From: Comamonas testosteroni
GTDB lineage: Bacteria > Pseudomonadota > Gammaproteobacteria > Burkholderiales > Burkholderiaceae_C
NCBI GenBank assembly: GCA_008727115.1
Contig: CP044131.1
Coordinates: 3,534,001-3,598,000 of the forward strand
Direction: 5' to 3'
DNA length: 64,000 nucleotides
Within the stretch, counting starts at the first letter, position 1. Each line of letters begins with the position of its first letter. A program made the translations under genes and the position numbers. The notes below the pieces were generated by a model. The model had not been told where the DNA came from and did not search any database. It was given only the letters and a program-made list of their open reading frames with translations. Positions 2,089 through 54,578 of this stretch are shown here, in pieces.

Positions 2089-2186
2089 ACACCAAGCAAG
2101 AGCCGCCTCGCGGCGATGGCGTCGTCCCCCTTCCATAGCGCGAAGCGCGTAGAGAAAGGGGGGAAGGCGCGAAGCGCCTCAGGGGG
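2089..2186 (-). repeat. Stop-codon-linked structured repeat, copy 1
   Basis: It begins directly after the TAA of the STAS gene and is read in the same direction. Order: CCCCCTGAG; hairpin 1 AGGCGC-TTC-GCGCCT; hairpin 2 with CCCCC/GGGGG arms and an extra inner GCGC-TTC-GCGC; then an outer stem GACGCC/GGTGTC enclosing CGCC-GCGA-GGCG. It has no T tract like that of an intrinsic terminator. It separates the STAS gene from the hslV promoter. Confidence 0.8.
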
Positions 2187-3917
2187 TTAATCCCGCCGGG
2201 GTATCACCTGCGCATGCTCCTGAATGCCAACGACATTGAAGAACACGGCCAGCAACTGATGCAACTGGCTGAACTGAAGCACATGGCCCAGCTCCTGCAT
2301 CTGCGCAGCCCAGTTCAGCACCGAGCCCGCCGCGGCAAAGTCCATCCGCACCAGGCGCGTGCAATCAATGGCAATCGCTTCGCCGAGCTTGGCCTTGGCC
2401 TGTACCTCAGCCAGCCAGGGCAGCGCATCGCCTTCAATCACTCCTTGAAGAGAAAAGCGCGGTTTACGCTCTTTCCAGAGCATGCCAGGCTGAATGGTTT
2501 CCGGCCCCAACAACCGACTGTCAGGCACCACAGACTTGTTGCCTTGCCCTTCATTCGAGTACGCACTGACCGGATCGATCCAGGAAGGAGGCGACGACTC
2601 ATAAGTCACGCAGTAGTCAAGAGCAGTCAGCTCAAAGTCGTCCTGCAAATGCATCAAGCGCTGCATTGCCAAACGCAAATACCAGCAACTCTGATCCACC
2701 GAACGATCGCCTGAGGGGCAATGCTTGCTGAGTACCGCGAGCAGCCTCTGATGTCCGGCAAAAATCAGCTCGCCTTTTTCAGATGTCCACTGCTCAACTG
2801 CCTCCAGCAACGGCTTTTGCACTGCAGGATCAATGCTCTCCAGAGCACTCCAGTCCATGGTCCAGGGGGCAGGGCTGCGGGCCTTGCTGGTCATCAAGGT
2901 CTTGAGGCTCGACTCCCCCAGTTGCACAGGCGCTTGCCAGCGAAAGCCCGCCTGAACAGGTGCATCCGCCACGTTCTCGCTGAGCTTGCCCGCCTGTTGA
3001 GGCATGACAAACCATTGGGGAGCAGAGCGACCAAAGCGCGCTACAAAATCCATTGCAGCATCTTCGAACTCGGCCTGCATGCCTGCTGCGCGGTACATAT
3101 CCAGCAATGCCAGCCAGACCTTCAACTGTGCTGGCGTATCCTGAGCCCGCTCGGCAATCAATCCCTTCAAGCTGACTTCTGCTGCTGCGTTGTCGCCGCT
3201 GGCAAAGACAATTGCGGCATCTTCCAGCGCAACATCGTGCTCAAAATTCGCAAAGGAAGGAGGCACCATGTTGATATCCGCAGGGGCGGACACCTCGGTC
3301 GTAGCAAAACCGGGAGAAAAATCCGTCTCACCACGCATGGAGGCCGCAGTCGGTGCCCCAGCAACAACCGCTCCCGGCGGAGGCAAGGTCACATCACTGC
3401 TCACGGCATCATTGAGCACCGGCAGCGAGCCGACGGATGCAGGGAGCTGCGTTCTAAAGGCGGAAGGCATGACGTTGCCCCCCTCGGGCAGCTGCAAAGG
3501 CATGGTGGTGGCATCAGCCATCTGCTTGCCACGCCACCATTGCTGCGCCATCTGCGCTTCAATCTCATCAATTTTCTTGATGGTTTCTGCGCGTTCGCCC
3601 GGCATGGAGCTTTGAGCAGTCTGCAAAAACGAAGAGCCAGCCAGAGGGGTAGGCGATTCCAGAGGAGCTCTGGCTGTCGAAGCCGTTTTGCTCAACTGAG
3701 CCTGCCGCAGCTTGCGAAGCTGTTCAAACTCGCGCTTACGCACAAAGTCATTCTGGCGCTTTCGCTCCAGCATCTCTTTGAGCGCCTGCTTGCTGTACTG
3801 GCTTTCTTCGCTTTCCTGGTTCAGATTTTCCAAATCAGACCAGTTGACGGTCGGATGGCGCACAAAACGCGCCATCTTGGCCAGCAACCCTCCCGATTTG
3901 TTCTCTTCTTTTGCCAT
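2187..3917 (-). CDS. STAS-domain protein of unknown role
   Basis: A 576-residue soluble protein with no signal peptide. The N-terminus (about 1-40) is basic and polar. A charged, probably coiled segment follows (about 40-80, rich in Gln, Glu, Lys and Arg), then a low-complexity Ala/Pro/Ser linker. The middle (about 225-300) looks helical and may be repeat-like. The C-terminal 90 residues ([13 protein letters not shown] to the end) resemble a STAS fold, with the typical [21 protein letters not shown] strand-helix pattern; STAS domains act in anti-sigma-antagonist signalling or membrane-lipid transport complexes. It lies 46 bp downstream of the dksA homologue on the same strand, which suggests co-expression. 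The precise function cannot be read from the sequence. Confidence 0.75.
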
Positions 3918-3963
3918 GGTTCTCTACTTTGATGCCTACAGCTCCATTAGCACTTGATGCAGA

Positions 3964-4707
3964 TCAATCGCCGTACATCTTTTGCTTGAGCTCACGACGC
4001 TGCTGAGCTTCCAGCGACAGTGTAGCCGTAGGACGTGCCAGCAGTCGGCCAACGCCGATAGGCTCGCCAGTCTCGTCGCAGTAGCCATAGTCACCGGCAT
4101 CAATGCGGGCAATGGACTGGTCGATCTTCTTGAGCAGCTTGCGCTCGCGGTCACGAGTACGCAGCTCAAGCGCATGCTCTTCCTCGATGGTGGCGCGATC
4201 GGCTGGATCAGGAACCACCACCGTGTCTTCACGCAGGTTTTCAGCCGTTTCACCGGCATTCATGTGCATGTCATTCTTGAGCGTAACCAGCTTGAGGCGG
4301 AAATAGGCCAGCTGGGCATCGTTCATGTAATCGTCATCAGACATGGCCAGCACTTCAGCATCGGTCAGCTCGGCAACCGACTTGGTCTTCCAGGCATTGG
4401 CCAGCTTGGGATCTTTTTTGGGCACAGCTTGCTTTGTGGTGGTCATTGCTTTCGTATCTCTCTTCGTTACCGCTGCCTGGAGCGCCTGGGCAGTCCTGGG
4501 CGGAACATCTGTTTCAGACTGCCGCGCGATGGGCGATGCAGAACGCTTGGTTTTGAACGACTTGGAGGAATTCACCGCTGCAGCAGGTGCCAGCACCGGC
4601 TTGTCCAACTCGGCGTTCACCAAAGAGGTCTTGGCGCTGCGGGTGCGTTCAGCCACTGCTGCTGTTTTGGCGGCAGCCTTGGGCAAATTACTTTTCACAG
4701 CGGTCAC
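3964..4707 (-). CDS. dksA: DksA-family RNA polymerase-binding regulator with degenerate zinc finger
   Basis: DksA binds the RNA polymerase secondary channel and works with ppGpp in the stringent response. The coiled-coil tip PDPADRA and the EEEHALELRTRDRERKLL helix are well conserved. Two things are odd. At 247 residues it carries about 90 extra N-terminal residues of low-complexity Ala/Lys/Thr sequence. The four-Cys zinc finger is reduced to C210..T213 and S231..A234, the pattern described for zinc-independent DksA2 proteins. The GTG start at 4707 is preceded by AAGGAG seven bases upstream, so the extension appears to be translated. An internal ATG (MTTTKQ) would give a shorter form. Confidence 0.92.
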   Translation of the reverse strand: MTAVKSNLPKAAAKTAAVAERTRSAKTSLVNAELDKPVLAPAAAVNSSKSFKTKRSASPIARQSETDVPPRTAQALQAAVTKRDTKAMTTTKQAVPKKDPKLANAWKTKSVAELTDAEVLAMSDDDYMNDAQLAYFRLKLVTLKNDMHMNAGETAENLREDTVVVPDPADRATIEEEHALELRTRDRERKLLKKIDQSIARIDAGDYGYCDETGEPIGVGRLLARPTATLSLEAQQRRELKQKMYGD

Positions 4708-4878
4708 GTCCTGTCTCCTTACAGTACAGAGCCCTTGCCGGGCCGGATTGCTCCAACACCCTCTTTAGGGGCGGCATTGTAGCTACGCCAGCCCCCCTGC
4801 CCAGAATCCGTTGCTCATAGCCCACAATTTGCGGATAAGCCAGAGGCTATTTCAACCAGTTTTCAAGAAATCACCAAA

Positions 4879-4906
4879 GAAAAAACGGCCCGCAAAGCAG
4901 GCCGTC
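4879..4906 (-). terminator. Intrinsic terminator after the COG0523 gene
   Basis: On the minus strand ACGGCC and GGCCGT (4900-4905 and 4885-4890) form a stem followed by TTTTTT. It lies 55 bases past the stop of the metallochaperone gene. Confidence 0.75.
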
Positions 4907-4960
4907 AGTCATTGTCAGAAATCTGTTAGCTTAAGAAGCAAGAACTCTGAAAACGATGTC

Positions 4961-6091
4961 TTACACCAGACACTGATCCAGCCCTTGTCGGAAGATGTCC
5001 TGCGGCAGGTCAATACCGATGAAGACCATCTTGCTGACGCGCTTTTCGCCCTCTTCCCACTCGGGGCCCAGATCGCTGCCCATGAGCTGGTGCACACCCT
5101 GGAAGATCACCTTGCGGGTGGTTCCCTTCATATCGAGCACGCCCTTGTAGCGCAGCATCTTGGGGCCATAAATGTTCACAATGGCGCCCAAAAAATCTTC
5201 CAGCTTGGCGGGGTCAAACGCACGCTCGGCACGGTAGACAAAGCTCTTTACATCATCGTCGTAGTGATGGTGATGCAGGTGATTGCAGTGTTCGCCATGC
5301 TCGTGGTCATGGTGGTCGTGGCCGCAATGCTCGTCATGCTTGTGCTCATGGCCGTGATCGTGACCTTCATGCTCGCACTTGCCATGTTCGTGATCGCAGT
5401 GGCTATGGTCGCCATGGTCATGATCGTGCTCGTCTTCCTTGAGGAAGTCGGGGTCGATATCGAGCTTGGCATTCAGGTTGAAGCCGCGCAGGTCGAACAC
5501 TTCGTTCAAAGGCACATCACCAAAATGCACGGCGCGGATAGGCGCGCGGGGGTTCATGTGCTTCAGACGATGGATCAGTGCATCCTTTTCGCCATCGGTC
5601 ACCAGATCGGTCTTGGACAGGAACATCTGGTCGGCAAAGCCCACCTGACGACGCGCTTCCTGGCGGTCTTCCAGCTGCTGGTTGGCATGCTTGGCATCGA
5701 CCAGGGTGATGATGGAGTCGATCAGATAAGTCTCGGCGATCTCGTCATCCATGAAGAAGGTCTGCGCCACGGGGCCAGGGTCGGCCAGGCCGGTGGTTTC
5801 GATCACGATGCGGTCGAAGTCCACCAAGCCCTTGCGGCGCTTGGCGGCCAGCAGTTGCAGCGCTTCTCGCAGGTCTTCGCGGATGGTGCAGCAGATGCAG
5901 CCATTGCTCATCTGCAGAATCTGTTCTTTGGATTCGGTCTTGAGAATGTCGGTGTCGATGTTTTCCTCACCGAACTCGTTCTCGATCACGGCAATCTTCA
6001 TGCCGTGGGATTCGTGCAGCACGCGCTTGAGCAGCGTGGTTTTGCCCGAGCCCAGAAAGCCCGTGAGGATGGTGACTGGAATGAGAGCCAT
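4961..6091 (-). CDS. COG0523 (CobW/ZigA-type) GTP-dependent metallochaperone, His-rich
   Basis: A cytoplasmic GTPase of the G3E family that delivers metal, probably zinc, to client proteins. Visible features are the P-loop GFLGSGKT (11-18), the metal-binding CxCC (C65-I-C67-C68), SKTD in the NKxD position, and a C-terminal CobW domain. Between the domains lies a metal-sponge segment (222-277) with about 25 His and 4 Cys. The 376-residue form starts at MALIPVTILTG; an 18-codon longer frame lacks family similarity. No Zur box could be recognised upstream. Assignment to a named member (zigA, yeiR, yjiA) is not possible from sequence alone. Confidence 0.9.
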   Translation of the reverse strand: MALIPVTILTGFLGSGKTTLLKRVLHESHGMKIAVIENEFGEENIDTDILKTESKEQILQMSNGCICCTIREDLREALQLLAAKRRKGLVDFDRIVIETTGLADPGPVAQTFFMDDEIAETYLIDSIITLVDAKHANQQLEDRQEARRQVGFADQMFLSKTDLVTDGEKDALIHRLKHMNPRAPIRAVHFGDVPLNEVFDLRGFNLNAKLDIDPDFLKEDEHDHDHGDHSHCDHEHGKCEHEGHDHGHEHKHDEHCGHDHHDHEHGEHCNHLHHHHYDDDVKSFVYRAERAFDPAKLEDFLGAIVNIYGPKMLRYKGVLDMKGTTRKVIFQGVHQLMGSDLGPEWEEGEKRVSKMVFIGIDLPQDIFRQGLDQCLV

Positions 6092-6273
6092 GCTTTGAAA
6101 CCTCTTGCTGCGGCCTGTCGCCTGATGCGCCAGCCCTGGAAACACGGGCAGCGGCCTGAATATGGCGCCGCCCCGGTAATAACAGCTGGGGAGTGTAGCG
6201 GCGCTTTCAAGCGCTTATCGACAGCAGGGCCGTGCAAAAATTCAAGAAAAAACTGCCCCAAGCGCTTATCTAT

Positions 6274-6290
6274 CAAGCGCCAGCAGCTAT
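6274..6290 (+). repeat. Short dispersed repeat (CAAGCGC..CAGCT family)
   Basis: The core CAAGCGCCAGCAGCTAT lies in the gap between the COG0523 gene and xerC. Further AAGCGCTTATC stretches at about 6208 and 6259 look like partial copies, so most of 6200-6300 is made of this repeat. Confidence 0.6.
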
Positions 6291-6305
6291 TAATTCAGGA
6301 CTTTG

Positions 6306-7367
6306 TTAGTCTTCAGCATCTCGCCCTTGCCCACGTTTGGAGGCAGGCTTGTCACCGCCCTCTTGCCGCCGGGCACGCGGGTGGGCGTTTTCATAAGCCT
6401 GGGCCAGATGCTGAAAATCCAGCCGGGTGTAGATCTGCGTGGTGGTGATGCTGGAGTGGCCCAGCAGTTCCTGTACCGCCCGCAAATCGCCGCTGGACTG
6501 CAGCATATGGCTGGCAAACGAGTGGCGCAGCACATGCGGATGCACGCCAGACGCCAGACCCGCCTGCTGCCCACGCAGCTTCAGCCGCGCCCAGATGGAC
6601 TGGGTGCTGAGCCGCTCGCCCCGGCGGCCAATGAACAAGGCGGGCTCCTCAAGAGCCTTGGCCAGCGCAGCCCCCGTCAGCGCGCTGCTGCGCTGGGCCA
6701 GCCAGGTCTGCAGCGCCTCCAGCGCCTTGCGGCCCACGGGCACAATGCGGCGCTTGCTGCCCTTGCCCTGCACATGGGCGTCGCCCGCCTCCAGATCGAT
6801 CCAGCCGCGCCCTTGTTGCAGGGTCTGCGCATCGGGGCGCACATCCAAGCCCGCCAGCTCGGCCGCACGCAGGCCGCAACTGTAGAGCAGCTCGGTCATC
6901 GCGGCATCACGCGCTTCGATCCACGGGTCGGCGTCGGCATTGTGGAAACTGGCCAGTTGCACGGCATCGTCCACGCCCAGTGCCTTGGGTAAAGGCTTGG
7001 GCGCCTTGGGGCCGCGCACACCTTCAACGGGGTTGAAGGGCACCAACTCCTGCTGCGCTGCCCAGCGAAAAAAGCTGCGCCAGCCCGACAAGATCAGCGC
7101 AATACCGCGTGGGCTGCGGCCTGCGCTATGCATTTGCGCGGCAAAACGGCGAATCTGCGCGGGCTGCAGCGCCAACAGGCCTTCTGCACCCTGCTGCCCC
7201 GCTTGTTGGGCAAACTGCTGCAGCTTGATCAAATCCAGCGCATACAGCGTATGCGTGCGATCGGCTAGGCGCTTTTGCACACGCACATGCTGCAGATAGT
7301 TGTGGACAACTTCCGGCAACTGAGCGTATTGCTCTTCAAAAGGGAGCTGATGGCCCTCGTGCACCAA
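6306..7367 (-). CDS. xerC: Tyrosine recombinase XerC
   Basis: Site-specific recombinase that, with XerD, resolves chromosome dimers at dif. The 353-residue protein has an N-terminal SAM-like DNA-binding domain (about 15-110) and a catalytic domain with Arg in SCGLRAAEL, HxxR in HVLRHSFASH, GH in LLGHSSITTTQ and the nucleophile Tyr313 in IYTRLD. The C-terminus carries a short Arg-rich tail. The start is TTG at 7367 or the adjacent GTG at 7364; no ATG fits. It lies 25 bp after the DUF484 gene. The order dapF, DUF484, xerC is the same as in enterobacteria and supports XerC over XerD. Confidence 0.95.
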   Translation of the reverse strand: MVHEGHQLPFEEQYAQLPEVVHNYLQHVRVQKRLADRTHTLYALDLIKLQQFAQQAGQQGAEGLLALQPAQIRRFAAQMHSAGRSPRGIALILSGWRSFFRWAAQQELVPFNPVEGVRGPKAPKPLPKALGVDDAVQLASFHNADADPWIEARDAAMTELLYSCGLRAAELAGLDVRPDAQTLQQGRGWIDLEAGDAHVQGKGSKRRIVPVGRKALEALQTWLAQRSSALTGAALAKALEEPALFIGRRGERLSTQSIWARLKLRGQQAGLASGVHPHVLRHSFASHMLQSSGDLRAVQELLGHSSITTTQIYTRLDFQHLAQAYENAHPRARRQEGGDKPASKRGQGRDAED

Positions 7368-7392
7368 TGGTTTGAGCCCTTTTCAGCTCAAA

Positions 7393-8106
7393 TCAGCCAT
7401 GTGCCAATGTCAGTGCTGGCGTGCGCATGCGTGATAGCGATGCACTGGCCAGTTCTGAAATGCGCGTCAAAAACTCTGTGCCCATGGTTGCATCAAAGCG
7501 CATGGGGTCGGGCGATCCCAACACCAGCATGCCAAAGGCATTGGTCGTGCTGTCCATGGCTCCATCGTGCAGTGTCAGCAATGCCACCGACTGCACGGCG
7601 TTGGGATTGGATAGCCAGGTAACGGGCTCAAAGCCCATATTGGGGCCACAAAACGGCATGGTCAGTGACGATGCAAATGCCTTGGCATCATCGCTGACTC
7701 CCATGGTGTAGACCGTGCCGCTGTGTGCACCCGCCACATTCCACAGGCGCAGCGCCACCTGTGGCACATCAAAAATATGCTGCAGGCTGGCCGTCAGTGC
7801 ATGAGGCAGCTCGCGCAGATCCTGCACCTTGACCAGCGCATGGGTCCACTGGTGAATCTTGTTGGCAATGGAGGCGTTCTCGCTTCCATGGCGCACCATG
7901 TCCATGATGCGGTGCTCCAAGCCCTTGATCTTCTCGCGCAGCATCTCGGCCTGGCGCTCCTGCAGGCTCACGGCACGCGGGCCGTGGCCACTGATCAAAC
8001 GCACTCCGGTCAGCATTTCGGCATGGCGCTCAAAGAACTCGGGGGTTTGCTGGAGATAGTCGGCAATCGACTCTTCGGTCAGGGCGGTGTCGGTCAAGCT
8101 GTTCAT
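7393..8106 (-). CDS. DUF484 family protein (GAF-like)
   Basis: A 237-residue cytoplasmic protein. The N-terminal segment [24 protein letters not shown] and the [14 protein letters not shown] helix are hallmarks of the DUF484 family, followed by a GAF-like fold. The molecular role is unknown; the family is consistently found between dapF and xerC. Its ATG overlaps the dapF stop (ATGA), so it is translationally coupled. Confidence 0.9.
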
Positions 8107-8981
8107 AAGGTATCAGGGATGTCGATCTGGCCTTCAAAAACAAATTCGGCGGGGCCGGTCATGCGCACACGGTCATGCGCCTGACCCGCCCATTCAATGG
8201 TAAGCAAGCCCCCTCGGGTGCGGACGTCCACGCGGCTGTCCAACAAGCCCCAGCCAATGCCGGCTACCACGGCGGCGCAAGCACCTGTGCCACAGGCCAA
8301 GGTCTCGCCAGAGCCACGCTCGTAAACGCGCAGTTTGACCTCGCCCCTGTGCATGATCTGCATGAAGCCTGCATTCACGCGCTGTGGAAAACGTGCATGT
8401 TGCTCAATCAGCGGTCCATGCTCGGCCACTTTTGCCGTCTCCACATCATCCACCCATTGCACGGCATGCGGGTTGCCCATGGAAACTGGCGCTATCCAGA
8501 CTGTAGCTGACTGCCCATGCTCATCAAGGTCTAGAGGCCATTTTTGTGCCAAACCCAAAGTTTGAGGCTGCAGACCTTGGGTAATGAACGGCACCTTGGC
8601 CGGATCAAGCTGGGGCGCCCCCATGTCCACGGTCACGCGGCCATCGTCATGAATTTCAGGGGCAATGATGCCGGAGAGGGTCTGTACCCGGATCACACTC
8701 TTGCGGGTCAAGCCCTTGTCACGCACATAGCGGGCAAAGCAGCGCGCACCGTTACCGCATTGCTCAACCTCTCCGCCATCGGCGTTGTGGATCACATATT
8801 CAAAATCCACATCTTCTGCAGGTGCCGGGCGCACGCTCAGTATCTGGTCGGCCCCTACGCCAAAGTGGCGGTTGGCCAGATAGCGGTATTGGGCCGTGCT
8901 CAGGCCCAGTCGACCCTGGGTCTCATCGAGCACGACAAAGTCGTTGCCCGCGCCTTGCATCTTGGTAAAGCGAATCTGCAT
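8103..8981 (-). CDS. dapF: Diaminopimelate epimerase
   Basis: Converts LL- to meso-diaminopimelate for lysine and peptidoglycan synthesis. The two catalytic cysteines are visible: Cys75 in [13 protein letters not shown] and Cys230 in [14 protein letters not shown]. The N-terminus [19 protein letters not shown] is canonical, so I start there rather than four codons upstream. The 292-residue length is slightly above the usual 275 or so because of a mid-protein loop (about 140-160). A small inverted repeat ATGGCGC/GCGCCAT (about 8983-9003) lies just before the start. It follows the MarR gene by 32 bp, so readthrough from the catabolic operon is possible. Confidence 0.97.
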
Positions 8982-11490: not shown

Positions 11491-11581
11491 GATGCCAAGC
11501 AAGGGCCGCCCCGCAGCGAGGGCATCGTCCCCCTCCCGCGCAGCGAGAGAGGGGGAAGCCGCAAAGCGGCTCAGGGGGTGA
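11491..11581 (-). repeat. Stop-codon-linked structured repeat, copy 2
   Basis: It begins directly after the TGA of the Bug gene. Hairpin 1 is AGCCGC-TTT-GCGGCT; hairpin 2 is CCCCCTC/GAGGGGG; the outer stem GATGCC/GGCATC encloses a CGCT/GGCG hairpin. Every stem differs in sequence from copy 1 yet still pairs. It lies inside the catabolic operon, between the Bug gene and the acyl-CoA dehydrogenase gene. Confidence 0.8.
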
Positions 11582-12589
11582 TCAGGTATCCGCCGTAAAG
11601 CCAATCTGCTTGACCAGCGGCCCCCAGCGCTCGAACTCAGCCTGCTGCGAGCGAGCCATCTCTTCCGGCGTGGAGCTGGTGGCAATCAAACCGACCACGC
11701 CTACGCTTTCCTTGAGTGCATCGCTCTTGAGCGCTGCCGTGATCGCTGCATGGGCGCGCTGGCGCACATCGAGCGGCGTCTTGGCATTGGCATAAAAGCC
11801 GAACCACTCTTCGGCGGTCAGGTCGGCAAAGCCCTGCTCGGCAAACGTGGGCACATTGGGCAGATAGGGGTTGCGCTGTGGACCGCTGGTCGCCAGTACA
11901 CGCAGCTTGCCCGCCTTGTAGTAGCTCAGGAAGTCACCGCTGGGGCCCATGACGGCTGCAATCTGGCCACCGGCGAGATCGGACACCGCAGGCGCCGTGC
12001 CGCGATAGGGAACATGGCTGAGCTTGATGCCCGAGCGCAGGCTGAGCAGCGAGCCGATCAAGTGTGGCTGAGTGCCCGCACCGGGGCTGCCAAAGCTGGC
12101 CTTGTCGGGATTGTTCTTGCACCAGGCCAGAAAGTCCTTGAGCGTCTTGACCTCGGCCGGCACGGCAGGGCCCACCGCCAGGCCGTGGTGCATGATGGCG
12201 CCGATGGAGATCGGCTCGAAATCCTTGGCCTGATAGGTCAGCTTGCTATAGATGTGCGGATAGATGGAGAAGGCCGAAACCTGGGACAGCACGATGACCG
12301 AACCGTCCCCAGCCGCCGTACGCAGGTTCTCCAGCGCAATGCGCCCTCCGGCACCGGGCTTGTTTTCCACCACACCCATATTCTTGCTGTAGCTGGTGCC
12401 GCCCAGCTTTTCTGCGACACGACGCGCTACCGAGTCCCCAGCACTGCCTGCGGGGAAGCCGTACAGAATGCGCACCTGCTCCAGCGGCCCGCCACCCTGC
12501 GCATACGCACTGCGGCTGGCGATACCGCCGAACGCAGCCAGTGCAGCGCCAGCGCTCAGGCTTTTGACGAAATGTCGACGATCTTGCAT
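11582..12589 (-). CDS. Bug/TctC-family periplasmic solute-binding protein
   Basis: A 335-residue extracytoplasmic receptor. The N-terminus MQDRRHFVKSLSAGAALAAFGG has an RR pair and a hydrophobic stretch ending near AYA-QGG, so it is exported, possibly by Tat. The mature part shows the Bug pattern: VRILYGFPAGSAGDSVAR, VENKPGAGGRIALENL, HVPYRGTAPAVSDLAGGQIAA and VPTFAEQGF. These proteins bind organic acids, often with orphan partners as in Bordetella; no TctA or TctB permease is nearby. Its place between SDR and acyl-CoA dehydrogenase genes suggests it binds the acid degraded by this operon. Confidence 0.9.
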   Translation of the reverse strand: MQDRRHFVKSLSAGAALAAFGGIASRSAYAQGGGPLEQVRILYGFPAGSAGDSVARRVAEKLGGTSYSKNMGVVENKPGAGGRIALENLRTAAGDGSVIVLSQVSAFSIYPHIYSKLTYQAKDFEPISIGAIMHHGLAVGPAVPAEVKTLKDFLAWCKNNPDKASFGSPGAGTQPHLIGSLLSLRSGIKLSHVPYRGTAPAVSDLAGGQIAAVMGPSGDFLSYYKAGKLRVLATSGPQRNPYLPNVPTFAEQGFADLTAEEWFGFYANAKTPLDVRQRAHAAITAALKSDALKESVGVVGLIATSSTPEEMARSQQAEFERWGPLVKQIGFTADT

Positions 12590-12695
12590 GTTTGTCTCCT
12601 GTTGGTAATGAACGGACTCTGCGGTCCTGTGAAATCAAAATAGGCTGCCGATCCTAATGCATTGATTGCTTACATCGATTGCTCTCACTGCTGGT

Positions 12696-19135: not shown

Positions 19136-19147
19136 CATGGAATAAGT

Positions 19148-19487
19148 GTGAAGTGCGCCGATAAGCCGGATTCTGTGCACAACGGTTGCCCGCCATGTGA
19201 CCGCCATTAATCTTGGCTGCCAGTCGCCTGACAGCTCGGTGCTACCTACCCGCACACTCCGGGGGCCCCGTCAACGTGTGCCTACTTGGTATTGCTGCGC
19301 GTAGAGATTGCCCGTTTCACCCTGGTTGGTCTGCCTTGCGGCACTCCTGCCAGACTCGTCTCTGTTGCTCTGATCCTCACCTCACGGTGGACAGCTGTTA
19401 GCTGCTACGCCGCCCTATGCAGTCCGGACGTTCCTCCAGTACGGCCTTTCGGCACTTGTACCAGCGGCGGTCTAGCCCACTTCACGG
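19148..19487 (-). ncRNA. rnpB: RNase P RNA (M1 RNA)
   Basis: About 340 nt, bacterial type A. The 5' strand GTGAAGTG (19485-19478) pairs with CACTTCAC (19155-19148) to form P1. Near the 5' end is the conserved GAGGAACGTCCGGAC box, and near the 3' end the CCGGCTTATCGG box; the GGGTGAAACGGGC segment is also typical. Both ends are estimates to within a few bases. A GATAAT -10-like hexamer lies at 19498-19493, directly after the AraC stop, so the promoter overlaps the end of that gene. It processes tRNA 5' ends. Confidence 0.95.
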
Positions 19488-37077: not shown

Positions 37078-37155
37078 GCTCCCCCCTGAGGCGCTTTGCG
37101 CCTTCCCCCCGAGGGGGACGGCAGCTTCGCCGCGAGGCGGCTCTTGCTGGCTGCC
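37078..37155 (+). repeat. Stop-codon-linked structured repeat, copy 3
   Basis: It starts four bases after the TAA of the flavoprotein gene. Hairpin 1 AGGCGC-TTT-GCGCCT; hairpin 2 CCCCC-CGA-GGGGG; outer stem GGCAGC/GCTGCC around CGCC-GCGA-GGCG. The outer stem is wholly different from GACACC/GGTGTC in copy 6 yet pairs fully. Confidence 0.8.
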
Positions 37156-37194
37156 TCTCATCTGCTGCGAAACAGTTTCCAGAGTTTCACCCTT

Positions 37195-46418: not shown

Positions 46419-46495
46419 ACTCCCCCTAAGGCGCTTCGCACCTTCCCCCGGAGGGGCACGATGCCTTCGCCGCGAGGCGGCTCTTGCTTGGCATC
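46419..46495 (+). repeat. Stop-codon-linked structured repeat, copy 4
   Basis: It starts ten bases after the arginase stop. Hairpin 1 AGGCGC-TTC-GCACCT (one mismatch); hairpin 2 CCCCCGGAGGGGC; outer stem GATGCC/GGCATC around CGCC-GCGA-GGCG. A partial 5' end TCCCCCTGA overlaps the arginase stop codon, as if the element's start had been duplicated. Confidence 0.8.
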
Positions 46496-46525
46496 TCTGA
46501 CTTGTAGCGCGTCAGTTTTATCACA

Positions 46526-46553
46526 TAAAAAAGGCGCTCTTTCGAGCGCCTTT
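46526..46553. terminator. Bidirectional terminator between arginase and gltL
   Basis: AAAGGCGCTC (46530-46539) pairs with GAGCGCCTTT (46544-46553). With flanking A tracts it serves the minus-strand gltIJKL operon (stop at 46573) and probably plus-strand readthrough. Confidence 0.85.
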
Positions 46554-47310: not shown

Positions 47311-47334
47311 TGCAATTCCTTGAGGGGAGCCGGC

Positions 47335-48006
47335 TTAACGGATGATGGCTATTTTTTTATGCAAACGCTTGACGAGCCAGGACAGCGCAAAGCAGATCAC
47401 AAAATAAGTCATGGCAGCCGCCAGATAGGACTCGATGGGGCGACCGTAGTTCTTGCCCGCGATCTCGAAGCCCTTGAGCATGTCGTAGGCACCAATGGCA
47501 TATACCAGCGACGTGTCCTGAAACAGGATGATGGTCTGCGTCAGCAGCACAGGAAGCATGTTGCGGAAGGCCTGAGGCAGCACTACCAGGCGCATGTTCT
47601 GACCATAGGTCATGCCCAGAGCCTGACCGGCGAACACCTGACCACGCGGAATGGACTGAATGCCGGCGCGCATGATTTCGGAGAAGTAGGCCGCTTCAAA
47701 CGCCACAAAGGTGATGATGGCCGAAGTCTCCGCACCGATGGGCTTGCCGATGATCATGGGCATCAGCAGAAAGAACCACAGAATCACCATCACCAGAGGA
47801 ATGGAGCGCATGCCATTGACATAGATAGTGGCAGGCAGATCCAGCCACTTCTTGCCCGACAGACGCATCAGCGCCAGCAAGGTGCCAAAGAGGATGCCGC
47901 CCAGCGTGGCAATCACCGTCAACATCAGGCTGAACATGAGACCCTTGGCCACAAAGTTGGTGTACAGATCCCACGAGAAAAACGACCAGTCGAGGTTGAG
48001 ATTCAT
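47335..48006 (-). CDS. gltK: Glutamate/aspartate ABC transporter permease
   Basis: A 223-residue inner-membrane permease with about five hydrophobic helices and the coupling (EAA) loop near SIPRGQVFAGQALGMTYGQNMRLVVLPQAFR. The N-terminus MNLNLDWSFFSWDLY matches GltK. One base separates its ATG from the gltJ stop. Confidence 0.92.
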   Translation of the reverse strand: MNLNLDWSFFSWDLYTNFVAKGLMFSLMLTVIATLGGILFGTLLALMRLSGKKWLDLPATIYVNGMRSIPLVMVILWFFLLMPMIIGKPIGAETSAIITFVAFEAAYFSEIMRAGIQSIPRGQVFAGQALGMTYGQNMRLVVLPQAFRNMLPVLLTQTIILFQDTSLVYAIGAYDMLKGFEIAGKNYGRPIESYLAAAMTYFVICFALSWLVKRLHKKIAIIR

Positions 48007-48007
48007 A

Positions 48008-48760
48008 TCAGTGGCCTCCACCGCTGGCTGCAATCAGGCCGGGCACGCGAGAACGCTTCTCGATAAAGGCCATGATGCGGTTGATGATGAAGGCAGAAAT
48101 CACATACAGACCCGTGACTGCCAGATAGATTTCGACGCCTCGCGCCGTTTCTTCCTGCGCCTGCATGGCAAACATGGTCAGCTCTGCCACCGATACAGCA
48201 AACGCCACGGACGAGTTCTTGAAGACGTTCATGGCCTCGCTGGTCAGCGGCGGAATGATGATGCGAAACGCCATGGGCAACAGCACATAGCGATAAGTCT
48301 GGAAGGTCGTAAAGCCCATAGCCATGCCTGCATGGCGCTGACCACGCGGCAGCGCCTGGATACCGGAGCGCACCTGCTCGGCAATACGTGCCGAAGTAAA
48401 AAATCCAATGGCAAACACCACTAACACAAAGCCCGGCAAGGACTTCATAGATGGGATCATGGCCGGAATCACGTGATACCAGATGAAAACCTGGACCAGC
48501 AACGGAATATTTCTGAACAACTCAACCCAGGCATTGCCCAGACGCACGATCCATGGACGATCAGGCAAGGTGCGCAAAGTGCCTATTACTGCGCCCAGGA
48601 TCAGAGCGATCAGCAGTGCCAGCAAAGCCACCGACACCGTCCAGCCCCAGGCAGACATCATCCAGTCCAGATAGGTGATGTCACCGTTCTTGCCAAAACA
48701 ACTCTGCCCGACCTCTTGGGTAATGGTGTCCTGACAGAACACCTGCCAATCCCAACTCAT
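48008..48760 (-). CDS. gltJ: Glutamate/aspartate ABC transporter permease
   Basis: A 250-residue permease with a longer polar N-terminus (MSWDWQVFCQDTITQEVGQSCFGKNGDITYLDWM) typical of GltJ, about five membrane helices, and the coupling loop IQALPRGQRHAGMAMGFTTFQTYRYVLLPMAFR. It follows gltI across an attenuating hairpin. Confidence 0.92.
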   Translation of the reverse strand: MSWDWQVFCQDTITQEVGQSCFGKNGDITYLDWMMSAWGWTVSVALLALLIALILGAVIGTLRTLPDRPWIVRLGNAWVELFRNIPLLVQVFIWYHVIPAMIPSMKSLPGFVLVVFAIGFFTSARIAEQVRSGIQALPRGQRHAGMAMGFTTFQTYRYVLLPMAFRIIIPPLTSEAMNVFKNSSVAFAVSVAELTMFAMQAQEETARGVEIYLAVTGLYVISAFIINRIMAFIEKRSRVPGLIAASGGGH

Positions 48761-48820
48761 ACGAGCACCTCTTTCATTCTTGGTTTATGGGGGCAAACGC
48801 TTGCATTCACCCTCTCAACA

Positions 48821-48854
48821 AAAAAGCCCCTTCTAACCGCTTGGCAGAAGGGGC
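48821..48854 (-). terminator. Attenuating terminator between gltI and gltJ
   Basis: On the minus strand GCCCCTTCT and AGAAGGGGC (48846-48854 with 48826-48834) pair, followed by TTTTT. It lies inside the operon, 20 bases past the gltI stop, and would favour excess binding protein over permease. Confidence 0.8.
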
Positions 48855-48874
48855 GGTACACCTATAGATCGGGA

Positions 48875-49774
48875 TTACTTGATTTCGTAGGCTTCCATGG
48901 GCTTGTCATTGGGGTTTGCCCACGCATCCTTGGTGGCGGCCGACAGAGGCAGACCCACCTTCACGTTGTTGGGAGGAATGGGCTGCATGAACCACTTGTC
49001 GTAGAGCTTGGCCAGCGAGCCGTCCTTGATCTGACGCACGATGGAATCGTCCACAGCCTTCTTGAAGGCTGGATCATCCTTGCGCATCATGCAGGCGATG
49101 GGCTCCACAGACAGCACTTCACCCACGATGTGGTAGTCCTTGGGAGACTTGGACTTGGAGATGTTGGCCGCCAGAATGGAGCCATCCATGATGAAGGCAT
49201 CGGCACGGCCGGTTTCCAGCATCAGGAAGCTGTCGGCGTGATCCTTACCCATGACTTCCTTGAAAGTCAGGCCATCGGCGCGCTTGTTCTTGCGCAGGGT
49301 CTGCACCGACGTTGTACCCGTCGTGGTCACGATCGTCTTGCCGTTCAGGTCCTTGATGCCATTGATGCCAGAGTTGGTGCGCGTAGCGATACGCACTTCT
49401 TCCACATAAGTGGTGAAGGCGAAGGCTGCATCCTTCTGACGAGCCGTGTTATTGGTGGTCGAGCCGCACTCGATGTCCACAGTGCCGTTTTGCACCAGGG
49501 GAATACGGTTTTGTGAGGTCAATGGCTGGTACTTAACGTCCAGCTTGGCCAGGCCAAGCTGCTTTTGAATGTCCTTGAGGATGTTCTCACCCATTTCGGT
49601 ATGGAAGCCCACATATTTACCATTGCCCAGCGTGTAGCCCAGGCCGGACGATTCACGCACGCCCAACGTGACGCTGCCCGAAGACTTGATCTTGGCCAGA
49701 GTGTCATTGGCCTGTGCAAACACAGTACCCGTAGCCAGTGCGGTAACGGCGATGGCCAACAAATGCTTTTTCAT
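48875..49774 (-). CDS. gltI: Glutamate/aspartate periplasmic binding protein
   Basis: A 299-residue receptor with a signal peptide (MKKHLLAIAVTALATGTVFAQ). The mature part shows the GltI/AatJ features GSVTLGVRESSGLGYTLGNGKYVGFHTEMGENI and SQNRIPLVQNGTVDIECGSTTNNTARQ. First gene of the operon, with its own terminator downstream. Confidence 0.93.
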   Translation of the reverse strand: MKKHLLAIAVTALATGTVFAQANDTLAKIKSSGSVTLGVRESSGLGYTLGNGKYVGFHTEMGENILKDIQKQLGLAKLDVKYQPLTSQNRIPLVQNGTVDIECGSTTNNTARQKDAAFAFTTYVEEVRIATRTNSGINGIKDLNGKTIVTTTGTTSVQTLRKNKRADGLTFKEVMGKDHADSFLMLETGRADAFIMDGSILAANISKSKSPKDYHIVGEVLSVEPIACMMRKDDPAFKKAVDDSIVRQIKDGSLAKLYDKWFMQPIPPNNVKVGLPLSAATKDAWANPNDKPMEAYEIK

Positions 49775-50199
49775 ATGGATCTCCTATCGGTAAGGACCAA
49801 AAACGCTTGTCACTCCTGTCAACGTCTCACCCTTTATGAGGGTAGACAAGCGACGTCAACAAATGTAATGCCCCCATTGTGCAGCGATGCAAGTCCTCTC
49901 AATGCAAACATTTCTAGGACTTTTCCCCTAGAAAATGAGAGCACGCAAGCACACACTATTCGCGCCTTTGCGCATTCATGCACAAGAGTCAGTCACAGGA
50001 CAAGCTGCGAACTCTAATGCTTTCGATAGGGATCAATCCAATGCCGATGGCAAAAAGCCTTATGCACAACTCGCATATTCAGCATTTACCCCATGCATAA
50101 CCCAAGGGTAATTACTTAGAAAAAAGTCAAAACCCTCACACTATCCAGCGCCAATAAAAAAGGGCCCTCAGGCCCTTTTGCAAATACCACACAGAAATC
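49775..50199. other. 425-base gap upstream of gltI
   Basis: No ORF worth calling. It contains the gltI promoter and leader; a stem-loop GTCTCACCC..GGGTAGAC (about 49824-49846) lies about 50 bases before the start codon. The far end holds the LysR terminator at 50156-50179. The middle is AT-rich with no motif I recognise. Confidence 0.5.
50156..50179 (-). terminator. Intrinsic terminator after the LysR gene
   Basis: AAAAGGGCC (50158-50166) pairs with GGCCCTTTT (50171-50179); on the minus strand it is followed by a T run. It lies 20 bases past the LysR stop. Confidence 0.85.
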
Positions 50200-51150
50200 T
50201 CAAGCTGCCTTGGTGTCCACCGCTGCCGTCTCTCCTTGCTCCTTGAGGAAGTTCCACAACGCTGCAGCCCCCCCTTGAGGTGCATCACCTGTGGGCTTTT
50301 CGCGATAGGCACGCACTTCCATATCCATTTGAAAGGCTTTCATGCCTTCAGGAACGGCTCGCACCAGTCGCCCGGCCTCCAGCTCGCCCCGCACAGCACT
50401 ATAGGGAAGAAAGGCCACGCCATGGCCTTCCAAAGCCATGGCCTTGAGGCCTTCTGCCATATCAGTCTCGTAAACCCGCTCCAGATGCACGGCCTCGGCC
50501 GACTCCTTGAGAATCAGTTCCGTCACCCGGCCCAGATACGCTCCCGCTGCATAGCCCAGATACGGCAGCGGCTGCCCCTGTTGGCCCGGCAGAGAGAAGA
50601 TGGGGTTGCCGTTTTCGTCCGGCTTGGAGTAAGGCGCCAGCACCTCATGTCCCAGACTCACCATTTCATAGCGCGCAGTGTCCAGCTGAAAAGGCTGAGA
50701 TGAGTGGTAGTAGGCAATCAGAAGATCACAGCCACCTTCAACCAGGCGCATCACGGCATCATGCACATTGAGTGCAAACAGCCGGCTGCGGAAGGGTCCG
50801 AACTTTTCGTGCACGGTCGACACCCAGTTCGGGAAAAAAGTGAATGCCAGGGTATGCGGCACGGCAAAGCCCACCATACCCTTGCCTGCACTGACGTGCG
50901 CACGCAGCATGGTCCGGGTGCTCTGCAGTGACTGCAGTATCTCGAGCGCCTGCTCGTACATGGTCTTGCCTGCTGGCGTCAGTCGCGTCGGGTAAGAGCT
51001 TCTGTCGACCAGATCAGTTCCCGCCCAAGCCTCCAGCGCCTGGATACGGCGCGAGAATGCCGGCTGCGTAACGTGGCGCAACTGGGCTGAGCGGCTGAAA
51101 CTGCGGGTTTCAGCAAGGCTGACGAAATCTTCAAGCCATTTGGTTTCCAT
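50200..51150 (-). CDS. LysR-family regulator (HypT-like)
   Basis: A 316-residue LysR regulator. The N-terminal helix-turn-helix (about 1-62) reads ETKWLEDFVSLAETRSFSRSAQLRHVTQPAFSRRIQALEAWAG, closest among proteins I know to the HypT (YjiE) type. A two-lobe effector domain follows. It is divergent from the second TRAP operon (296-bp gap) and is on the same strand as gltI, 425 bp upstream of it; control of the TRAP operon is the simpler guess. The ligand is unknown. Confidence 0.87.
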   Translation of the reverse strand: METKWLEDFVSLAETRSFSRSAQLRHVTQPAFSRRIQALEAWAGTDLVDRSSYPTRLTPAGKTMYEQALEILQSLQSTRTMLRAHVSAGKGMVGFAVPHTLAFTFFPNWVSTVHEKFGPFRSRLFALNVHDAVMRLVEGGCDLLIAYYHSSQPFQLDTARYEMVSLGHEVLAPYSKPDENGNPIFSLPGQQGQPLPYLGYAAGAYLGRVTELILKESAEAVHLERVYETDMAEGLKAMALEGHGVAFLPYSAVRGELEAGRLVRAVPEGMKAFQMDMEVRAYREKPTGDAPQGGAAALWNFLKEQGETAAVDTKAA

Positions 51151-51446
51151 AGACTGGCATTATCCGCTGCCGCGTACCACAGCCGTACAACACAGGTCAT
51201 CCAGACACGTGAAATATCTAGCCCTTTAGGGTAATGCCTGCTGCCCGACGTAAGCCCTGCGACATAGATAGCTTGATAATATTTGCTCACATCTATCCGG
51301 TGTGTTTACTCGCTCCATCCCATCTCGGTGCACAACACCGCGAAGGTCGAGGGACTGCATAAGGGCGTTCACCTTGAGTGCGCGCAGATCACGCCATCCT
51401 CGCGAACGGCCCTGACCCATGTGTGTTTTTCTGACTTCCCGCGTTC

Positions 51447-52007
51447 ATGTCCTCCACTTCTCCCGAGACCGATGGTGCAGCCGACTCCGGCACGCACCCG
51501 GCTGAGCCTCGCTCCCTGCGCATTGAAGACTGGCTGACGGTGATCATCATGGCGGCTCTCGCCCTGATCACCTTCGCCAATGTGCTGGTGCGCTACTTCA
51601 CCAACTCCTCCTTTGCCTGGACCGAAGAGATCTCCGTCTTTCTGATGATCGTTCTGGCCCTGGTGGCAGGCTCTTCTGCCGTCGCTCGCGACCAGCATAT
51701 TCGTATCGAGTTTTTCTGCGGCAGTGGCTCGGCCGCCAGACGCAAAGCGCTGGCCCGCTTTGGCTCGTTGATGGTGGCAGTGCTGTTTGCACTGATCGCC
51801 GTGCTCAGCGTGCGCGTGGTCTGGGATGACTATCGCTATGAGGAAACCTCTCCCGGCATCGGGCTGCCGCAATGGTGGTATTCCATCTGGCTGCCCGTGG
51901 TCTCCACCCTCGTGACCGTGCGCGCCCTTGGCCTGTTTGTCCGCCAGGGCAAGCCAGGAGTGTTCACCGACGAGCCACCCCAGACTCAGGACGAGGAGGC
52001 AGCATGA
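51447..52007 (+). CDS. TRAP transporter small permease (DctQ)
   Basis: A 186-residue protein with four hydrophobic segments and an acidic N-terminus; ITFANVLVRYFTNSSFAWTEEISVFLMIVLALVAGSSAVARDQHIRIEF is the DctQ core. First gene of a Q-M-P operon, divergent from the LysR gene. Stop overlaps dctM (ATGA). Confidence 0.92.
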   Translation: MSSTSPETDGAADSGTHPAEPRSLRIEDWLTVIIMAALALITFANVLVRYFTNSSFAWTEEISVFLMIVLALVAGSSAVARDQHIRIEFFCGSGSAARRKALARFGSLMVAVLFALIAVLSVRVVWDDYRYEETSPGIGLPQWWYSIWLPVVSTLVTVRALGLFVRQGKPGVFTDEPPQTQDEEAA

Positions 52008-53302
52008 TCGCCACCTTGTTGTTTGTAGCCTTTCTGGGCCTGATGTTCATTGGCGTGCCCATTGGCGCAGCCCTGGGTCTTGCCGGCGCTGCAGCGATTG
52101 CATTGGCCAATGGCGAGGCCCAGTGGTTTGGCCTGCTGGCCGTGCCGCAGAACTTCTATGCGGGCCTTGGCAAATATCCGCTGCTGGCCATCCCCATGTT
52201 TGTGCTGGTGGGCTCCATCTTTGACCGCTCTGGCGTAGCCCTGAGGCTGGTCAACTTTGCCATCTCCATCGTGGGCCGTGGCCCCGGCATGCTGCCGCTG
52301 GTGGCCATTTGCGTGGCCATGTTCATGGGCGGCATCTCCGGCTCCGGCCCCGCCACAGCCGCCGCTGTGGGCGGCGTGATGATTGCCGCCATGAACCGCG
52401 CAGGCTATCCGTCACCCTACTCGGCCAGCGTGGTCGCGGGTGCAGCGGCCACCGACATTCTGATCCCGCCCTCGGTCGCCTTCATCGTCTACTCCGTACT
52501 GGTTCCCGGCGCCTCCGTGCCAGCGCTGTTTGCCGCCGGCATGTTCCCCGGCATTCTGGCCGGTCTGGCTCTGATCATTCCTTCGGTATGGCTGGCTCGC
52601 CGCCACAAAATGGGCCAGCTCGAAGCTTCCATGCCCCGCCCTCCTTTCTGGAAAAGCCTCAAGGAGGCCTCCTGGGGCCTGGCTGCTCCCGTAGTGATTC
52701 TGGGCGGCATGCGCGCAGGCCTGTTTACCCCGACCGAAGCCGCCGTAGTGGCGGTGTTCTATGGCCTGTTCGTGGGCATGGTGGTGCACCGCACAATCAA
52801 GGTGCGCGACCTGTTCACCATCTTGCGCGAAGCGGGCGAGCTGTCTGCCGTCATCCTGATCGTGGTCTCGCTGGCAGGCATTTTTGCCTTCTCGCTGTCC
52901 ACCCTAGGCGTCATCGACCCCGTGGCTGCGGCCATCGTCAACTCCGGACTGGGCGAGCGCGGCATTCTGGCGCTGCTCATCGTGCTGCTGCTGGTCATGG
53001 GCATGTTCCTGGACGGCATCTCCATCCTGCTGATCTTTGTGCCGCTGATGCTGCCTCTGATGAACCACTTCAACTGGGATGTGGTCTGGTTTGGCGTGGT
53101 GCTCACGCTCACCGTGGCGGTGGGCCAGTTCACGCCACCCATGGCTGTGAACCTGATGGTGGCCAGCAAGATTGCCCGCGTGCGCATGGAGCACACCACG
53201 CGCTGGGTCATCTGGCTTGTACTGGCCATGTGCGTGGCCATGCTGCTGGTGGTTCTGTTCCCGTCCATTGCAACCTGGCTGCCCGAGAAACTGGGGTACT
53301 AG
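52004..53302 (+). CDS. TRAP transporter large permease (DctM)
   Basis: A 432-residue permease of normal family length with about twelve hydrophobic segments. Motifs GGISGSGPATAAAVGGVMIAAM, ATDILIPPSVAFIVYSVL, FTPTEAAVVAVFYGLF and GQFTPPMAVNLMVA are typical. Start at the ATG overlapping dctQ; the upstream frame extension is a shadow. The TAG stop is fused to structured repeat copy 5. Confidence 0.93.
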   Translation: MIATLLFVAFLGLMFIGVPIGAALGLAGAAAIALANGEAQWFGLLAVPQNFYAGLGKYPLLAIPMFVLVGSIFDRSGVALRLVNFAISIVGRGPGMLPLVAICVAMFMGGISGSGPATAAAVGGVMIAAMNRAGYPSPYSASVVAGAAATDILIPPSVAFIVYSVLVPGASVPALFAAGMFPGILAGLALIIPSVWLARRHKMGQLEASMPRPPFWKSLKEASWGLAAPVVILGGMRAGLFTPTEAAVVAVFYGLFVGMVVHRTIKVRDLFTILREAGELSAVILIVVSLAGIFAFSLSTLGVIDPVAAAIVNSGLGERGILALLIVLLLVMGMFLDGISILLIFVPLMLPLMNHFNWDVVWFGVVLTLTVAVGQFTPPMAVNLMVASKIARVRMEHTTRWVIWLVLAMCVAMLLVVLFPSIATWLPEKLGY

Positions 53303-53384
53303 CTCCCTGAGCGGCTTTGCCGCTTCCCCTCCCTCACTGGGAGGGGACGACACCAGCGCGACGGGGCAACCCTTGCGCGGTGTC
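53302..53384 (+). repeat. Stop-codon-linked structured repeat, copy 5
   Basis: The G of the dctM TAG stop is the first base of the element. Hairpin 1 AGCGGC-TTT-GCCGCT; hairpin 2 CCCCTCCC/GGGAGGGG; outer stem GACACC/GGTGTC. The inner third hairpin is the most diverged of the six. It lies between dctM and dctP of one operon. Confidence 0.75.
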
Positions 53385-53453
53385 TGCTGACTTGAATCAG
53401 GCTTATTCAAGGTTCATTCAATGAACCAACGACTTTCTAAAAGGAGACATTTC

Positions 53454-54491
53454 ATGAAACTTCGTACCTTCCTCGCATCCGCCGTGGCCACTGCTGCCGC
53501 ACTGGCCTTTGCATCGCCCATGGCCATGGCACAGACCAAGTACAAGAGCGAGTACCGCATGTCCCTGGTGCTGGGCACGGCCTTCCCCTGGGGCAAGGGT
53601 GGCGAGCTGTGGGCCGACAAGGTGCGCGAGCGCACCCAGGGCCGCATTAACATCAAGCTCTACCCCGGCACCTCGCTGGTCCAAGGCGACCAGACGCGTG
53701 AGTTCTCCGCGCTGCGCCAGGGCGTGATCGACATGGCTGTCGGCTCGACCATCAACTGGTCGCCCCAGGTCAAGTCGCTGAATCTGTTCTCCATGCCCTT
53801 CCTCTTCCCCAACTTCAAGGCCGTGGATGCCGTGGTGCAGGGTGAAGTGGGCCAGGACATCTTCAAGACCCTGGAAAAAGCCGGCGTTGTTCCACTGGCC
53901 TGGGGTGAGAATGGCTACCGCGAAATCTCCAACTCCAAGCACGCCATCAAGACGCCCGCCGACCTCAAGGGCATGAAGATTCGCGTCGTGGGCTCGCCCC
54001 TGTTCCTGGACACCTTCACCGCCCTGGGTGCCAACCCCACGCAGATGAGCTGGGCCGATGCCCAGCCCGCCATGGCCAGCGGTGCCGTGGACGGCCAGGA
54101 GAACCCCATTAGCGTGTACATGGCCGCCAAGCTGCAGTCCGTGGGCCAGAAGCACATGACCATGTGGGGCTACATGAACGACCCGCTGATCTTCGTCGTC
54201 AACAAGGACGTGTGGAACAGCTGGACGCCCGCCGACCAGGCCATCGTCAAGCAAGCCGCACTGGATGCTGCCAAGGAAGAAATCGCCATTGCCCGCAAGG
54301 GTCTGGTCGAAGCGGACAAGCCTTTGCTCAAGGAACTGGGCAACCTGGGCGTGACCGTCACCACCCCTAACGCAGCCGAGCGCGAAGCCTTTGTGAAGGC
54401 CACCCGCCCCGTCTACGACAAGTGGAAGAACCAGATCGGCGCGCAACTGGTGGACAAGGCCGAGAAGGCTATTGCTGCTAGTCAGAAGTAA
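53454..54491 (+). CDS. TRAP transporter solute-binding protein (DctP)
   Basis: A 345-residue periplasmic receptor with a signal peptide (to about AMAQ). RVVGSPLFLDTFTALGANPTQMSWADAQPAMASGAVDGQENPISVYMAAKL is the ligand-binding core of DctP proteins, with the expected Arg and Asn positions. AAGGAG lies eight bases before the ATG. Third gene of the Q-M-P operon; ligand unknown. Confidence 0.93.
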   Translation: MKLRTFLASAVATAAALAFASPMAMAQTKYKSEYRMSLVLGTAFPWGKGGELWADKVRERTQGRINIKLYPGTSLVQGDQTREFSALRQGVIDMAVGSTINWSPQVKSLNLFSMPFLFPNFKAVDAVVQGEVGQDIFKTLEKAGVVPLAWGENGYREISNSKHAIKTPADLKGMKIRVVGSPLFLDTFTALGANPTQMSWADAQPAMASGAVDGQENPISVYMAAKLQSVGQKHMTMWGYMNDPLIFVVNKDVWNSWTPADQAIVKQAALDAAKEEIAIARKGLVEADKPLLKELGNLGVTVTTPNAAEREAFVKATRPVYDKWKNQIGAQLVDKAEKAIAASQK

Positions 54492-54578
54492 GCTCCCCCT
54501 GAGCCGCTGCGCGGCTTCCCCCTCTCTCTTCGGGAGGGGGACGACACCTTCGCTGCGAGACGGCTCTTGTTTGGTGTC
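54492..54578 (+). repeat. Stop-codon-linked structured repeat, copy 6
   Basis: It begins at the base after the dctP TAA. Hairpin 1 AGCCGC-TGC-GCGGCT; hairpin 2 CCCCCTC/GAGGGGG; outer stem GACACC/GGTGTC around CGCT-GCGA-GACG. Its continuation (CTTGCGACGCGCCAGTTTTA) resembles the sequence after copy 4, so similarity extends about 25 bases further. Confidence 0.8.

Follow-up and report, generated by a model that had tools for sequence, protein, structure and literature searches.

A REP-like repeat of the Burkholderiales, placed in sense orientation directly behind the stop codons of Comamonas testosteroni genes

Repetitive extragenic palindromic (REP) sequences are palindromes of 20-40 bp described as lying near the 3' ends of genes and sometimes supplying the stop codon (PMC3733652). 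Those of Escherichia coli lying less than 16 nt from a stop codon are reported to be able to down-regulate translation, and of 4072 predicted REPs, 446 are located no more than 15 nt from a stop, the corresponding figure for an earlier set being 260 of 496 (PMC12306157). ERIC, NEMIS/Correia, BOX and RUP are likewise described as short structured intergenic repeats that were likely once mobile (PMC3110155). Closest to the present case is BRE (Hot et al. 2011), presented as a GC-rich, dispersed, mobile-looking repeat of about 90 bp in Bordetella and the Comamonadaceae, tandem in Bordetella, whose function its authors left open and from whose region the transcripts BprJ1 and BprJ2 were seen on Northern blots (PMC3110155); the term "stop codon" occurs 0 times in the main text of that article. 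Here we describe a structured element present in six copies within a 64,000-nt stretch of the Comamonas testosteroni genome (contig CP044131.1, positions 3,534,001 to 3,598,000; hereafter the window), each copy directly following a stop codon, and its distribution in this and other genomes.

The element is a real, abundant, strictly placed and sense-oriented REP-like repeat of the Burkholderiales. A covariance model (R1) built from 34 copies of the same genome, the six window copies among them, had at least 151 matches in the 4.14 Mb genome, a floor since 150 of 1798 first-look candidates were scored; the weakest of the 150 listed copies had E=2.2e-13, and further, weaker copies turned up inside the stretches fetched around them. 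An exact pattern of the central part of the element matched the genome 32 times and, when read backwards, 0 times. The copies, roughly 75-130 nt long, are distributed over both strands (68 plus and 82 minus among those listed), and 137 of the 150 start at -16 to +12 nt relative to the final stop-codon base of a same-strand gene, the genes around them having been called by a simple codon-usage finder made for this analysis. Random intergenic positions and strands drawn 1000 times from the same stretches gave on average 5.9 such placements per 150, and never more than 13. Start distances are spread across 0-12 nt, with none of the main distribution beyond, and those of 0 or more fall into the three frames as 59, 45 and 19 copies; in 13 copies starting at -8, the TGA within CCCCCTGAG serves as the stop of the gene itself. 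The same placement was found in four other genera (G003, G004, G014 and G057), where the best coding-like frame ended between -8 and +13 in 42 of 44 top-scoring copies. This is the genome-wide stop-codon and strand bias by which the initial annotation had proposed to tell such an element from a plain intergenic repeat.

Among the 13 listed copies that miss the rule, those at 195971 and 2168496 come after another full or partial copy, and at 1336532 and 714805 uncalled open frames of 105 and 166 amino acids (aa) end at 0 and 6 nt, respectively; the remaining misses stand as exceptions. In 21 cases the 3' boundary of the match is also about 60 nt or less from the end of an opposite-strand gene. 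Element-bearing genes score higher in codon usage (0.357 vs 0.317 per codon, p=1.8e-7) and more often end in TAA (64/138, against 117/350 without the element). The following gene shares the strand in 103/138 cases with the element and 234/350 without it, and the median same-strand gap is 166 nt with and 62 nt without.

Checked against the sequence, all six copies in the window had the positions and orientations first proposed for them. They were exactly the matches to a 28-base signature with at most three mismatches, which had 0 matches in 100 dinucleotide shuffles, and R1 scored them at 95-123 bits; the same search gave no convincing seventh copy in the window, the next-best match having E=0.54. 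Counting from the final stop-codon base up to the first C-tract, copy 1 (2064..2186 with its tail, minus strand, 119.6 bits) lies 0 nt after a STAS_2 gene and copy 2 (11491..11578, minus strand, 115.2 bits, its tail lacking a T-tract) 3 nt after a TctC/Bug gene. On the plus strand, copy 3 (37082..37178 with tail, 106.5 bits) follows the stop of a gene for an FAD-dependent protein by 8 nt, copy 4 (46422..46518 with tail, 106.9 bits) follows arginase by 12 nt, copy 5 (53303..53384, 95.4 bits) follows dctM by 0 nt and precedes the dctP start codon by 36 nt, and copy 6 (54495..54602 with tail, 123.1 bits) follows dctP by 3 nt. At copy 4 the arginase stop sits within a truncated extra element start (CCCCCTGA) just upstream of the copy. 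The six genes preceding the copies are those first named and have no relation to one another (STAS_2, TctC/Bug, FAD-dependent C-terminal domain, arginase, DctM and DctP). The copy ends, as first drawn, needed revision, conservation extending some 25-30 nt farther into the tail. Directly downstream of copy 1 is a proteasome-subunit-like gene (PF00227, E 2.4e-19; 1445-2095, minus strand).

From 5' to 3' the element consists of a C-tract, TGAG, a helix P1 (GNNGC/GCNNC), a length-variable helix P2 (a C-tract paired with a G-tract below a variable top), GACG (reverse complement CGTC), a helix P3 enclosing an inner GCGG-loop hairpin, and a tail with the consensus GCGCC(A/G)GTTTT, of which C[C/A/G]GTTTT is present in 52/150 copies. 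P3 has an outer stem of six pairs, in which many pair types are exchanged, then two pairs farther in, and at the apex a GNG/CNC stem occurring as GGG/CCC, GAG/CTC and GCG/CGC; covariation thus places a GCGG loop where a GCGA tetraloop had been annotated. Mutual information calculated without a preset structure from 112 copies of this genome ranked the helical pairs first, the top seven being 90-99% standard pairs and the strongest reaching 1.087, where 20 column shuffles did not exceed 0.168. Pairing is seen in 96.2% of the cells of the own-copy alignment, compared with 84.7 after shuffling, both sides are changed in 269 cells, compared with 91.1 after shuffling, and the covariation score is 0.315, compared with 0.114 when shuffled and at most 0.070 for slid pairings. 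The strong covariation asked for by the initial annotation is thus present. For 44 copies from other genera the score was 0.245 vs 0.082, and a "further pair types" measure was no better than shuffles (191/500). Both alignments were fitted to R1 and are hence biased toward its structure. A tail hairpin, CTGGC/GCCAG, considered as a fourth helix, was rejected, being absent from the covarying pairs.

Two C-tracts, one before P1 and one opening P2, are able to pair with the single G-tract, and the minimum-energy fold of one consensus pairs the G-tract with the first of them. Covariation support for this leading pairing is weak, 29/2000 shuffles reaching the observed count, against 0/2000 for the second C-tract (182/194 copies parsed). 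Searching the window with Rfam 15 at the gathering threshold returned RNase P only (class A RNA, 19146-19483, minus strand, 209 bits) and no match to the element, and four element loci searched at E<=5 gave one sub-threshold match, to rli38 (27.3 bits, gathering 49).

Comparison of downstream sequences indicates that the element itself is not the transcription terminator at most convergent gene ends, where a hairpin-plus-T terminator follows it in 26/35 cases; the figures are 12/138 for shuffled sequence and 60/116 for element-free convergent ends. Where the next gene is on the same strand, a terminator lies behind the element in 32/103 cases (40/103 over 1-250 nt), and element-free same-strand gaps contain one in 78/234 cases overall and in 54/98 of those over 80 nt. 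In the window, the separate terminator first noted after copy 6 is present (terminator-like sequence at 54624..54657, plus strand), and copy 4, for which none had been noted, is followed by one as well (46533..46553, plus strand), found also in congeners without the element.

Beyond C. testosteroni, the element was detected in 28/60 genomes of the family (own included), in 8/250 of the order, from family codes f1 and f4 only, and in 2/140 of the class, both f1; 55, 14 and 25 candidates per genome, respectively, were scored, and weak or diverged copies could be missed. Among diverged forms, the placement is kept in 10/10 top loci of G013, all within -8 to +10, and in 8/9 of G146. A pattern of the f4 type found 65 stretches, 64 of them from Achromobacter or Bordetella and one from a Burkholderiaceae metagenome-assembled genome. 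Among the 31 of these 65 loci that were sampled from Bordetella and Achromobacter, a second model (R2) matched 29 over 97-117 aligned bases including flank, extending the three-helix plan to these relatives. Counted over 29 copies from named Alcaligenaceae and two plasmid copies, 16/31 lie near a stop, including 9/12 from Achromobacter and 4/4 from Bordetella other than the strain BT 1 9.2. On annotated plasmids the element is found where a thiolase gene ends (C. odontotermitis) and where a RidA-family gene ends (Diaphorobacter), each followed by a same-strand gene; for the Diaphorobacter copy the frame test favoured a far frame, and the annotation gives the near one. In Bordetella petrii BT 1 9.2 (L276 to L326) the copies are at a greater distance from called gene ends and are preceded by a conserved lead-in, CTGAAGTGAAAGTCCC, in which two frames contain stop codons. 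The element signature is also present in five viral-contig stretches (L363-L367).

Many window sites carry the same element in congeners, sometimes in decayed form. Where presence and absence could be compared, the entire stretch from stop to start differed, and filled and empty alleles were common to species against their overall relatedness. Since a filled allele departs from an empty one along the entire gap from stop to start, also in genomes that are 93-95% identical, no exact insertion junction or target duplication was obtained. At site 47311, our genome, G086 and G096 carry the empty allele and the 93-95% identical relatives of G086 are filled; the gap there (47311-47334) is a near-identical 24 nt in all three despite their differing overall relatedness, a sign of interspecies recombination. 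Within the group of six genomes to which these relatives belong, median element identity, with gaps counted, was 0.95 at site A2001, 0.89 at A8351, 0.73 at A9381, 0.65 at B2001, 0.79 at B2947 and 0.75 at B4881 (6 pairs at B4881 and 15 at the other sites; A4682+, with no usable anchors, was left out). Element identity therefore differs by site, some sites keeping their element and others having it replaced. At A9381, where the adjacent genes are 0.96 identical against 0.73 for the element, the P1, P2 and P3 types differ among the six genomes. Sites are thus retained even as entire element alleles are exchanged among species, and copies appear to overwrite one another and to pass from species to species through recombination. 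A nested small piece with GCCTAGGC was observed inside P1 or P3 at different sites and in different species (L372, L374, L378, and copy 6 of G071, G075, G077, G079, G086 and G088), and CCTAGG in 3/150 own copies. In G088 and G096 the TctC/Bug gene (window-equivalent 11582-12636) is duplicated, with an element behind each gene copy.

Between dctM and dctP the element is present in 6/10 genomes (own, G060, G071, G074, G075 and G088), decayed in G074 and altered in G075, and the other four (G077, G079, G086 and G096) carry an unrelated hairpin of 13 bp that begins 5 nt behind the stop. This place seems to need a hairpin rather than the sequence of this particular element. At siteC, the empty alleles have a hairpin beginning about 19 nt after the stop (two folded).

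Based on these data, we favour, with a probability of about 0.5, a predicted post-stop stem-loop acting in mRNA. The element comes first behind the stop codon, in sense orientation, and the footprint of the ribosome would place P1 at the leading edge of a terminating ribosome. The stem-loop might thereby act as a barrier, leaving little naked RNA behind the last ribosome, with possible consequences for mRNA stability, for access of Rho or RNase, or for termination and recycling. We prefer this reading because of the placement near same-strand stops in 137/150 own copies, 42/44 from other genera and the top copies of G013 (10/10) and G146 (8/9), the covariation with its controls, the separate terminators (26/35), the replacement by another hairpin between dctM and dctP and the higher codon scores of the genes concerned, and because E. 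coli REPs less than 16 nt from a stop are reported to be able to down-regulate translation (PMC12306157).

Several observations weigh against this reading. G-U pairs are no commoner in the stems than A-C mismatches (33:37 overall, from subsets of 19:26, 3:4 and 11:7, with P2 excluded from the first two and ten of the eleven G-U in the third, from the Alcaligenaceae copies, contributed by one column pair), and P2 in the alignment of own copies has 14 U-G against 38 non-pairs, as expected without selection on a sense RNA; covariation alone is therefore no proof of RNA selection, and the compensatory changes may stem from copying between elements or from correction of one hairpin arm by the other. 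At the copy 3 site the element is absent from G060 and G074, and the empty alleles there, like those of siteB and 47311 with 22-24 nt between stop and start, have no evident hairpin, so the element is dispensable at these three sites. Terminators are fewer behind the element than in long element-free same-strand gaps (32/103 vs 54/98), and the element may accordingly have a partial terminating role before same-strand genes. In family f4, few top loci are near a stop (1/9 in the Alcaligenaceae genome G186, several of whose nine are second copies in tandem arrays, and 1/2 in G218), as are 2/13 in Bordetella petrii BT 1 9.2. The reading first given for the six copies, a spreading or selected 3'-end RNA element, stands insofar as neither chance nor a plain intergenic repeat explains them; selection on the RNA we infer, and spread at the present day would be conjecture, as presence and absence among congeners take the form of whole-gap alleles common to several species.

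The alternative that survives best, although we consider it unlikely, is a neutral or selfish family of DNA hairpins, formerly mobile and without host function, that has survived best at gene ends, with correction of hairpin arms or conversion among copies maintaining the pairing. The equality of G-U and A-C, the overwriting of alleles at fixed sites, the decayed copies in congeners and the patchy spread (28/60 genomes of the family) are all in keeping with such an origin, but tolerance alone leaves the 12-nt limit and the sense orientation of 137/150 copies unexplained, and no transposase adjoined the element in the loci searched. By analogy with E. coli REPs closer than 16 nt to the stop, which are reported to stall ribosomes, the element could instead down-regulate translation, and the 12-nt limit found here resembles the limit reported for them (PMC12306157); with element-bearing genes having higher, not lower, codon scores, we regard this as improbable. 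Slightly less probable still is a putative RNA switch gated by translation termination behind at least 150 genes, in which the first C-tract would lie under the terminating ribosome (stop 0-12 nt upstream) and the presence or release of that ribosome would select the fold, with effects on decay, Rho access or recycling. As an intrinsic terminator, the element would draw on the short T-tract in the tail of some copies (52/150) and on the relative scarcity of separate terminators behind it compared with long element-free same-strand gaps, but this is disfavoured as a main role and very improbable in view of the separate terminators at 26/35 convergent ends, a tail hairpin without covariation, and the position of copy 5 inside the dctM-dctP pair. 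Least probable of all is a role in which 3' ends would give off stable small RNAs, for which the B. pertussis BprJ1 of about 80 nt would be a precedent if BRE is the same family, but that is one locus only, and its authors report independent transcription (PMC3110155).

A predicted post-stop stem-loop and a functionless repeat lead to a question long attached to REP-like repeats, parasite or working part of the 3' untranslated region, which becomes directly testable here because at a given site related species may have the element, some other hairpin or no hairpin at all. The position comes near to a rule, in sense and at most 12 nt from the stop behind at least 137 genes, repeated in several genera, and the element also illustrates that compensatory change, when seen in a repeat of many copies, does not necessarily imply RNA selection.

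Judged from sequence features and published descriptions, the element is probably the BRE repeat named in 2011, in which case the Bordetella BRE would gain an anatomy and a testable function. BRE is described as a repeat of 75-91 bp present in Bordetella; the Bordetella and Achromobacter relatives found here share the three-helix plan of the element, and tandem copies occur in G186 (5 adjacent pairs among 22 matches). BRE forms tandem arrays, whereas copies in Comamonas are mostly single and tandem ones are rare in our genome, and the two are likened by description, the text of PMC3110155 giving no sequence or structure to compare. The lexA context, taken as a possible proof of identity, did not provide one, as there was no element match at the lexA loci of 5 Bordetella/Achromobacter genomes; BRE sites are described as poorly conserved between species (PMC3110155).

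With REPs and BIMEs the element shares its character as a palindromic intergenic repeat near 3' ends, but a REP is a single hairpin, often in opposed pairs, whereas the element has three helices and occurs mostly as single sense copies. REPs of the GTAG types, moreover, have RAYT transposases. A RAYT/REP pairing was rejected here, as Y1_Tnp genes are not flanked by the element: in flanks of about 1.5 kb there was none at our own locus, and 29 congener loci gave a single weak match, in L243, at a distance of about 1 kb. The genome has one gene of the Y1 (IS200-like) transposase family, that of our locus (L140 1318-2178, near 654990, 286 aa), and such genes are also single in most congeners. The element has a GACG separating P2 from P3; its stems do not match those of the published CGTC families. 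ERIC, NEMIS/Correia, BOX and RUP resemble it as short structured intergenic repeats and are set apart here by description, not by sequence; none of them is known for a comparably strict post-stop placement, and titles and abstracts of the openly accessible literature surveyed described no stop-linked Comamonas element. Short bacterial repeats near gene ends are already known, and what sets this one apart is the strict post-stop placement in sense orientation, with 137/150 copies within 12 nt of a stop compared with 446/4072 or 260/496 E. coli REPs within 15 nt.

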